From contig NZ_CP019791.1 in the NCBI RefSeq assembly GCF_002007645.1, positions 1,798,001 to 1,862,000 on the forward strand: 64,000 bases of DNA, in the 5' to 3' direction. Source of the stretch: Anaerohalosphaera lusitana (GTDB taxonomy: Bacteria; Planctomycetota; Phycisphaerae; Sedimentisphaerales; Anaerohalosphaeraceae). The notes beneath the pieces are model-generated. The model did no database searches and had not been told where the DNA came from. It was given only the letters and a program-made list of their open reading frames with translations. Shown here piece after piece: positions 10,119-60,811 of the stretch; within the stretch, counting starts at the first letter, position 1, and every line of letters begins with the position of its first letter. A program made the position numbers and the translations under genes.

Positions 10119-10173
10119 AAAAATAAAAGGTTTATTACGCAATAGCGACCAACGAATAGTTATTCAAATCCCG

Positions 10174-10254
10174 AGCCGCATAATTTCACAGTCTGCCGAG
10201 AATGGACTCCAAAGAAAGTTCGTCGGAGGCGCGGCTGTTAAATTCTGCGGCGGC
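10174..10254 (+). repeat. 81-bp fold-back repeat, copy 1
   Basis: It starts AGCCGCATAATTTCACAG and ends CTGTTAAATTCTGCGGCGGC. The two ends are imperfect inverted copies of each other. It lies between two convergent genes. Five other copies of the same length family are at 29657, 44503, 51706, 60138 and 60569. Confidence 0.92.
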
Positions 10255-10293
10255 CAAAAAGGTGCTCCTAATTTTACCGCGCCGAACAAAATG

Positions 10294-29598: not shown

Positions 29599-29656
29599 TA
29601 CTTGTTGCAGAAACCGGCCAAAGCAAGCAACAGTCAAAATATATGCCGCATTCCCC

Positions 29657-29737
29657 AGCCGCATAATTTCACAGCTCGCCGAGAATGGACCCAACGGATA
29701 GTTCGTCGGAGGCGCGGCTGTTAAATTCTGCCCCGGC
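29657..29737 (+). repeat. 81-bp fold-back repeat, copy 2
   Basis: Same orientation as copy 1, with the same length and ends except CCCC in place of CGGC near the right end. It lies between convergent genes, just after the terminator at 29564. Confidence 0.92.
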
Positions 29738-29807
29738 CCAATTAAAGCTTCCTACTATCCCGTCCCAAATACTGCAAATGCCGCAACAGCAAACCCGATC
29801 CGCCCCC

Positions 29808-44502: not shown

Positions 44503-44583
44503 GCCGCCGCAGAATTTAACAGCCGCGCCTCCGACGAACTTTCCGCTGGGTCCATTCTCGGCGGACTGTGAAATTATGCGGCT
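44503..44583 (-). repeat. 81-bp fold-back repeat, copy 3
   Basis: Minus orientation, 81 bp, lying between convergent genes (exbD-like and clpX) 18 bp after the exbD-like stop. Confidence 0.93.
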
Positions 44584-44647
44584 GGGGAGTTGGTGAAGGG
44601 GAGGGGACATTTGACTGCTGCTTCCGCTGCTCGTAAGGGTATTAAAA

Positions 44648-51705: not shown

Positions 51706-51786
51706 GCCGCCGCAAAATTTAACAGCCGCGCCTCCGACGAACTTTTGGGAGGGTCCATTCTCGGCGGACTGTGAAATTGTGCGGCT
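51706..51786 (-). repeat. 81-bp fold-back repeat, copy 4
   Basis: Minus orientation, 81 bp. Unlike the first three copies it lies in a divergent intergenic region, just beyond a minus-strand terminator. Confidence 0.92.
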
Positions 51787-51814
51787 TGGGGGTGCGCTGA
51801 TTTCGGTTGGCGCA

Positions 51815-56137: not shown

Positions 56138-56211
<74 letters not shown>

Positions 56212-56259
56212 TTTCAAGACCGGCTGAATAAAGCTGGATCGCCGGTGGACAGCAGGTCC

Positions 56260-56332
<73 letters not shown>

Positions 56333-56599
56333 TGATATTTCGGTTGCTGGAATTTTTTCGGGATGAACCCGAGATGAGACGAGCAACTATAATATATAGG
56401 TTAGTTCTTTGAAAAGTTAATAGTGAATGCGAGTTGTGGTTGAGTTGCAGACTCCCCAGTCTGTAACGCAACAACTGCAATTAAACTCAAACAGAGTCTT
56501 TAATTAGATTCTGGGATGAGCGCTCATTAGTGAATCAATTCTCCGTCACACGCAAGTGTGATGAAAAAAATGGCGAACCAATCAATCCATGATTGATAT

Positions 56600-59520
<2,921 letters not shown>

Positions 59521-59642
59521 ATATCAATCATTGGTTGATGGTACGCAATTTTTGTGAGAGTTGATTTACAGCTCATCCAATCGCATTCACTATTTTTCTT
59601 TATATTTGAATACATCCCGGCCTTCGGGTCGGTGTTACAAGT

Positions 59643-59752
59643 TTCCTGGTGACCATACGGACGGGGAAACGCCTGATCCCATTCCGAACTCAGAAGCTAA
59701 GCCCGCCCGGCCGATGATAGTCCTTATGGGTGAAAGTAGGTGATCGCCAGGT
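59643..59752 (+). rRNA. 5S ribosomal RNA
   Basis: About 110 nt. The ends TCCTGGTGA and TCGCCAGG pair, and the conserved CCGAACTCAGAAG block is central. It lies about 120 bp after 23S. Ends are approximate. Confidence 0.93.
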
Positions 59753-60137: not shown

Positions 60138-60218
60138 GCCGCCGCAAAATTTAACAGCCGCGCCTCCGACGTACTTTCCCCTGGGTCCATTCTCGGCGGA
60201 CTGTGAAATTATGCGGCT
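60138..60218 (-). repeat. 81-bp fold-back repeat, copy 5
   Basis: Minus orientation, intact, 81 bp. It has CGACGTACTTT where most copies have CGACGAACTTT, a variant shared with copy 6 420 bp away. Confidence 0.93.
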
Positions 60219-60238
60219 GGTGGGTTCGGGAAATGGTC

Positions 60239-60317
60239 GGGGTTGTTGGGACGTTGATTTGGTTGGCTGATGTTTTCTGATGATCTTTCGTTTGGGCTTG
60301 ACAGTTTGTGGGGTGCG
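60239..60317 (+). repeat. About 80-bp diverged direct repeat, copy B
   Basis: Second copy of the repeat at 59851. TTGACA is at 60298-60303 in this copy. Confidence 0.55.
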
Positions 60318-60568
60318 GGTGGGCTTCAACCATGGTGCTGCAGAGCGGGCACAAACATGACACCAGGATGTAAACCATTGTTAAAAAAGCATTTAAGAGC
60401 AATATAAAGGTGTCTGACCCTTTTTATTTGACCCAAGAAGAAATGCAGAACCTTGTTTATTATTACAATTACTATTTTTCTTTCCGGGCCTCTGTTTCTG
60501 CTAACCTACACGTTTGTTTTTGGGGGGCGAATAGAGTTTACAGGTTTATGGTAGTGCGTAAGTGTTGG

Positions 60569-60811
60569 GCCGCCGCAGAATTCCAGAAACTGTTTCAAAA
60601 CTCAGATTTGCCTTTCGGCGGCCCTTTTTCCGTTTGGCTTTGTTGTGCAAAACCACCCATAGAATAGCTATGGCCGGTTTCACACGCCTTGCCGAGACAA
60701 AAAAATTGCACGCCGAGAAGACAAAAGCAGTTTCGAAACAGCTTCTTCAGCCGCGCCTCCGACGTACTATCCGCTGAGTCCATTCTCGGCGGACTGTGAA
60801 ATTGTGCGGCT
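60569..60811 (-). repeat. 81-bp fold-back repeat, copy 6, interrupted
   Basis: The outer part GCCGCCGCAGAATT at 60569-60582 and the remainder from CAGCCGCGCCTCC at 60748 to 60811 belong to the 81-bp family. They are separated by a second fold-back element. Three bases of the intact sequence (TAA) are missing at the junction. Confidence 0.88.
60585..60746. mobile_element. 162-bp fold-back element nested in repeat copy 6
   Basis: The ends AGAAACTGTTTCAAAACT and, on the other strand, AGAAGCTGTTTCGAAACT are inverted repeats with two mismatches in 18 bp. The two halves stay complementary in patches to a central CCATAG-AATAG-CTATGG hairpin, so the whole element can fold on itself. No transposase is encoded. 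It resembles a miniature inverted-repeat element or a REP-type doublet. Confidence 0.75.

Follow-up and report, generated by a model that had tools for sequence, protein, structure and literature searches.

A fold-back element with IS5-type ends inside an 81-bp repeat of Anaerohalosphaera lusitana: a probable MITE within a MITE

In a 64,000-nucleotide stretch of the Anaerohalosphaera lusitana genome (here called the window; G000:C1:1798001-1862000 of a 4,250,973-base single-contig genome with a completeness of 99.96%), one copy of an 81-bp repeat, copy 6, is broken into two parts. This locus raises the question of whether the intervening sequence is a separate mobile element that entered an existing repeat, as a sequence-only reading of the window had proposed, or whether the whole is one larger unit, and of how old the arrangement may be. 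Copy 6 begins with GGGCCGCCGCAGAATT, is interrupted by 165 bp and resumes with CAGCCGCGCCTCC, in agreement with the split of about 165 bp noticed in that reading (Table 1). By trimming against other copies, we placed the ends of the inner element so that it measures 160 bp and carries terminal inverted repeats (TIRs) of 17 bp, where 18 bp had been described. The TIR pattern, searched with at most 2 mismatches, gave 4 matches in the window with respect to 0.32 expected, and 3 of these 4 lie within the inner element. Elsewhere in the window, at 56138-59752, two tRNA genes and the 23S and 5S genes stand in a row; 16S gave no Rfam match within the window at the gathering threshold, and linkage between the 16S and 23S genes seems to be absent.

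Table 1. Features of the nested locus and other copies of the host repeat in the window (window coordinates).
Feature	Position	Strand	Basis
Host 81-bp repeat core, left part (GGGCCGCCGCAGAATT)	60567..60582	+	corresponds to the left arm conserved in the repeat
Left junction, CCA where TA is expected	60583..60585	+	bases also altered here in other composites
Inner fold-back element, putative IS5-family type MITE	60586..60745	+	homologous to 19 other compared full copies
Left TIR of the inner element	60586..60602	+	consensus left end vs IS: left end 16/18, right end 15/18
Right TIR of the inner element	60729..60745	+	consensus right end vs IS: left end 17/18, right end 16/18
Internal paired arms and central hairpin of the inner element	60615..60716	+	covariation (alignment columns 31-133)
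Right junction (TT)	60746..60747	+	flank comparison of copies
Host 81-bp repeat core, right part	60748..60810	+	match to host repeat
Host repeat copy 5, neighbouring, uninterrupted	60138..60241	+	match to host repeat
Host repeat copy, uninterrupted	51706..51809	+	match to host repeat
Host repeat copy, uninterrupted	44503..44606	+	match to host repeat
Host repeat copy, uninterrupted	29652..29741	-	match to host repeat
Host repeat copy, uninterrupted	10169..10258	-	match to host repeat

Copies of the inner element in the genome

The inner element belongs to a family, of which we compared 20 full-length copies in its own genome in addition to fragments; these counts are lower bounds, 40 of the 52 first-look candidates having been scored. 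The two ends of the copies are variants of GAAGCNGTTTCAAAACT and of its complement. No 81-bp core lies within 200 bp of 18 of the 20 full copies, the exceptions being the window copy and the locus L008, and most host repeats are uninterrupted (50 of the 54 read), which bears out the proposal that a separate mobile element was inserted into a pre-existing repeat.

TA flanks both sides of 9 of the full copies, one side of 7 and neither side of 4. The background for TA on both sides is 0.2% per copy, corresponding to about 0.04 expected among 20; the tally of 9 is the one used, and L013 would make a tenth by eye. Among the copies outside the 81-bp repeats, 16 of 18 have TA at one end at least, while L006 and L010 lack it at both ends. 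From the nine copies with TA on both sides, we read the target context as YTAR, with C or T before TA in 8 of 9 and A or G after it in 9 of 9. No spanning stop-to-stop frame of at least 150 residues was found in 17 of the 20 copies (for L017, L019 and L023, the matched part alone was examined).

Shorter and longer forms were observed as well. Eight 22-bp palindromes built solely of two inner-element ends were read, at G000:C1 13742, 121203, 733340, 1131389, 3011409, 3484346, 4091440 and 4236382 (L064, L065, L066, L068, L063, L072, L073 and L074, respectively), with TA on both sides in 5 of 8, and these are probably remnants of the inner element left by internal deletion. The same 96-bp central insert is present in two inner copies at different loci (L023/L018 and L019/L025, at G000:C1 951211-951468 and 3712246-3712504), suggesting that the enlarged element moved or was copied as a unit.

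Three RHS-type genes hold an inner copy with shortened ends, each at 1501-1641 (L021, L020 and L024, at G000:C1 4016735, 4080796 and 3006227), and the sequence of an RHS-type paralogue devoid of the element, L128, continues where its three relatives have the inner copy. The frame is open across the element in two of the three genes, with a gain of 54 residues in the one that was counted; in the third, a scripted frame search found a longer frame elsewhere. The segment around L021 matches the RHS core model TIGR03696 above its cut-off and the Pfam RHS repeat below cut-off.

An IS5-type element with matching ends

The sequence-only reading had suggested searching the genome for other copies of the inner element, with and without the surrounding repeat, and for a transposase with the same ends. 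Besides the copies described above, of both kinds, this search led to G000:C1:3348024-3348921, where two TIR matches 900 bp apart flank an element of 898 bp, preceded by CTA and followed by TAT, that is, with TA on both sides. Between its ends and those of the inner consensus, 15 to 17 out of 18 positions are the same. The 898-bp element has two frames that overlap, and seven A in a row lie in the shared part; in Pfam, the first frame matches PF13340 (DUF4096, IS4/5; E 2.3e-26) and the second PF01609 (E 1.5e-22). The best NCBIfam model for both frames is NF033580, IS5 family, with E 5.5e-42 for the second frame, above the cut-off, and E 1.2e-29 for the first, just below it. In a search limited to the DUF4096 domain, this element was the sole match in the genome. 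The conserved start of its first frame immediately follows a stop in that frame, suggesting that this copy may be inactive.

Given that it shares its ends with the genome's single DUF4096 (IS5-family) element, the best reading of the inner element is a MITE of the IS5 type, putatively of the IS427 group. PMC3281130 lists at least 11 elements of the IS427 group, with lengths of 832-865 bp and 2-bp repeats in at least 10, and describes some members as having a pair of overlapping ORFs and a motif for frameshifting. Compared with these descriptions, the 898-bp element shows the 2-bp TA and the two overlapping frames, and it is slightly longer than 832-865 bp. The inner element resembles MITEs of this group in its IS5-type ends (DUF4096, two-frame), its 2-bp TA flanks and its length of 160 bp, too short for a transposase gene; it differs from them in its long covarying internal arms, and what it shares with the 898-bp element is seen in the terminal 17-18 bp only.

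Other classes of small elements were considered. The TA target would also fit an IS630/Tc1-mariner MITE, and an IS630 assignment guessed from this target was dropped once the IS5-type element with the same ends had been found. The size of the inner element and its TA-flanked long TIRs are not suggestive of REP/BIME sequences (palindromes of 20-40 bp with a REP-associated tyrosine transposase). In Streptococcus pneumoniae, the RUP element, 107 bp long and linked to IS630-Spn1, is reported to insert into other mobile elements (PMC2229807); as described there, it is, like the inner element, non-autonomous, with ends like those of a resident IS, a TA target and insertions into other mobile elements, whereas it is tied to an IS630-type transposase and the ends matching our inner element belong to an IS5-type element. 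Given this report on RUP, nesting itself is already known. In a literature search that covered few subscription journals, no account of nested bacterial MITEs was recognised as describing the present pair of families, which is weak evidence of absence.

The host repeat, its composites and the number of insertions

The right-half pattern of the 81-bp repeat has 58 matches in the genome, 29 per strand and scattered, of which 54 were read (368937, 1116078, 4074074 and 298297 were left out). Among the latter, two carry the full inner element at one and the same site (the window copy and L008), 50 are without insert and two, 2531394 and 3543882, are chance matches by eye; 3822313 and 3441039 are truncated. 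The host tree comprised the 50 rows other than these last four, and the arm test 49, and a first comparison of the window repeat, which scored 40 of 67 candidates, gives a lower bound. In other genera of the family, the best matches to the repeat have 82-83% identity, with matches in 4 of 40 genomes, the own genome included.

Host copies have wider, less conserved arms that by eye look like GGTTCATCACGGAATA, the sequence at the ends of eight 1308-bp ISL3 elements in this genome (L111-L118; 96-98% identical to one of them). The 8-bp flanks of these ISL3 copies are identical in 6 of 8, and 6 of 8 bases are alike in the two others. Arms within 5 mismatches of 16 to the ISL3 ends were found on the left in 17 of 49 host copies, on the right in 12 and on both sides in 3, while a shuffled-end control gave means of about 0.8 and 0.7 and maxima of 5 and 7 for left and right. 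In a comparison of the 8-bp flanks of 3 host copies for which both arms had been found, one copy (376844) has 7 of 8 matching bases. The resemblance to the ISL3 family holds family-wide and is weak in single copies, and the host arms, unlike those of ISL3 elements, are degenerate. The 81-bp core has no stretch similar to the ISL3 element, its one weak match (19 bases, E 0.035) lying outside that element. Because the arms resemble ISL3 ends above the shuffles, the 81-bp unit is best read, from sequence comparison, as the putative conserved core of a larger, older and degenerate ISL3-related MITE.

Two other identities of the repeat were discarded. An integron attC site, considered from a stretch resembling RYYYAAC, a motif of such sites, was rejected given that the matches are scattered and form no array. 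A 5'-leader, considered from an AGGAGG-like stretch that follows some copies, was set aside, as the flanks contain the arms resembling ISL3 ends; varied gene contexts of the copies in the window also speak against it. As separate observations, two host copies, L035 and L044 (G000:C1 ~427184 and ~1066201), are alike over about 600 bp, with 81% identity, a similarity that extends far upstream of the 81-bp core, perhaps as part of a larger duplicated segment; and at L117/L071 (G000:C1 ~2810081-2810176), an ISL3 copy adjoins, or sits within, a truncated inner-type end, perhaps another nesting of different order.

The host consensus contains only one YTAR, the TTAA of GCAGAATTTAACAGCC, and the inner element is located there. 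With a probability that we put at about 0.8, the inner 160 bp are an IS5-family MITE, moved in trans and inserted at this sole YTAR of an ISL3-related MITE core; the nesting of one MITE in another is supported at the window locus and is of an ordinary type. An IS5-family (IS427-like) transposase would recognise the GAAGCNGTTTCAAAACT ends and move the non-coding inner MITE in trans, with insertion at TA in a YTAR context. The inner MITE would in this manner have entered the TTAA of a second, unrelated MITE, and the junction bases would have been altered after insertion. The expected junctions are TTTA/GA...TC/TAAC, and we read TTCCA/GA...TC/TTC in the window copy and TCCG/GA...TC/TGC in L008, altered alike and without TA duplication. 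For the window copy, a missing target duplication and the loss of TAA had been noted before, and we find the same, the host TTTAA being disrupted.

Four further loci consist of a host left arm, an inner left part of about 55-62 bp, a linker and the whole host core; in one of them, L026, we judge the host left arm to be diverged. All six composites, 2 full and 4 truncated, have one orientation, 5 of 6 have C at the altered left junction (L026 differs), and 5 of 6 start with GAAAC instead of GAAGC, as also the standalone L013 does. The like junction C, GAAAC and the single orientation are not predicted by separate insertions. They raise the possibility of one old insertion, after which the composite spread as a unit via its outer ends and later diverged, partly by gene conversion, a history that shares the nesting with our reading and differs from it in the number of insertions. 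The second full composite at the same site and in the same orientation, the common layout of the four truncated ones, the GAAAC start and the absence of TA duplication in both full composites would all fit it; enlarged forms can spread, as the two inner copies with the same 96-bp insert indicate, and in the host-core AU test a common origin of the two full composites was not rejected (p = 0.227, 67 columns).

Comparisons of the two parts lean against such a single event. The inner tree was built from 20 copies over 160 columns, after those holding the 96-bp central insert of two copies had been taken out; in it, the window copy is placed next to L002 (94/94) and L008 next to L010 (94/90), neither grouping being starred, and the window copy and L008 were joined in 0% of 200 bootstrap trees. 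The AU test against joining their inner parts gave p = 0.038, a value that is indicative only, the differing central loops of the two nested copies having been seen before the test. In the host-core tree, L008 falls in a starred set of 8 rows without copy 6, the two host cores differ in form (short in copy 6, T-rich in L008), and around the insertion the two loci are alike for no more than about a dozen bases beyond the composite. As the inner elements are of different subfamilies, the full composites are probably not copies of one larger unit. It had been stated at the outset that repeated occurrence of the composite as one unit would indicate a single larger element: the composite does recur, in full twice and truncated four times, but the full ones differ in inner subfamily. 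We consider a single insertion possible, though unlikely, and more than one insertion at the TTAA site is favoured over one insertion and spread by about two to one.

The age of the event was also claimed in the sequence-only reading, in which the inner element was called recently mobile. This is unsupported, since nesting gives an order without a date. Divergence from the inner consensus amounts to 10.0% in the window copy and 9.4% in L008, compared with 3.1% in the closest copies and three copies within 4%, and in its host core, copy 6 differs from the host consensus by 9.0%; on these distances, nothing marks the insertion at the window copy as recent.

Distribution, folded shape and meaning

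With the window copy as query, no match to the inner element was found in 39 other relatives. With the near-consensus L003, 5 of 161 genomes of the order gave matches, the own genome included; with at most 5 candidates scored per genome, the numbers of copies are lower bounds. Another genus of the same family has a full-length copy that is flanked by TA at both ends (L136, in G131; 74% identity), and partial matches of 70-77% to L003 occur in three genomes of another family. No blastn match was found in plasmids and phages, and no match to one exact pattern in viral contigs; L061, on a Pseudohalocynthiibacter plasmid and the sole pattern match in genome contigs, was set aside, with no element ends nearby by eye.

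As single-stranded DNA, the inner element outscores each of 200 dinucleotide shuffles in folding (z = -4.4), in line with its earlier description as two halves folding back on each other. Covariation was evaluated on an alignment of 20 sequences, namely 17 of the 20 copies, two of the three RHS copies and L136, with L017 and the two copies carrying the 96-bp insert left out. Of 28 predicted pairs, 10 show compensatory changes, with 31 cells changed on both sides; shuffles gave 4.7 pairs and 7.5 cells, and slid partners at most 3 pairs and 9 cells. Further pair types are not above the shuffles, 227 of 500 of which reach the observed number. Related rows inflate the shuffle controls, while the slid control keeps relatedness but leans to a structure from the same rows. 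A similar pattern could come from palindrome correction; conserved unpaired patches between the helices count against a simple form of it. The folded shape appears to be preserved, and the covariation is the most unusual result.

A stronger interpretation combines these observations: the element would be a mobile hairpin whose structure is selected and shared between genera, the TTAA of the ISL3-type MITE core would be a recurrent docking site yielding composites, and the same element would elsewhere add in-frame segments to RHS proteins. We regard this combination as speculative and rather unlikely. The compensatory pairs, in excess of both controls, and the 74% identity retained over the full length in another genus would also be expected if the inner sequence were selected as a structured RNA or a regulatory hairpin and its mobility were incidental. 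This is improbable, considering the inflation of the shuffle controls, the further pair types and the possible palindrome correction just mentioned, as well as the scattered TA-flanked copies and end-only remnants, which behave like transposon derivatives; moreover, the inner element in the window has no Rfam match at the gathering threshold. Chance or an assembly artefact as the source of the nested arrangement is refuted by the copy number, in a nearly complete genome of a single contig whose family members lie at separate loci with different flanks.

In summary, one genome holds two putative families of MITEs, and for both it also has resident elements that carry a transposase and whose ends match or are similar; no accepted view is overturned by this arrangement. 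The nesting at the predicted target site makes a relative ordering of mobile-element activity possible, and the covariation makes it possible to test whether the hairpin structure of a bacterial MITE is under selection.
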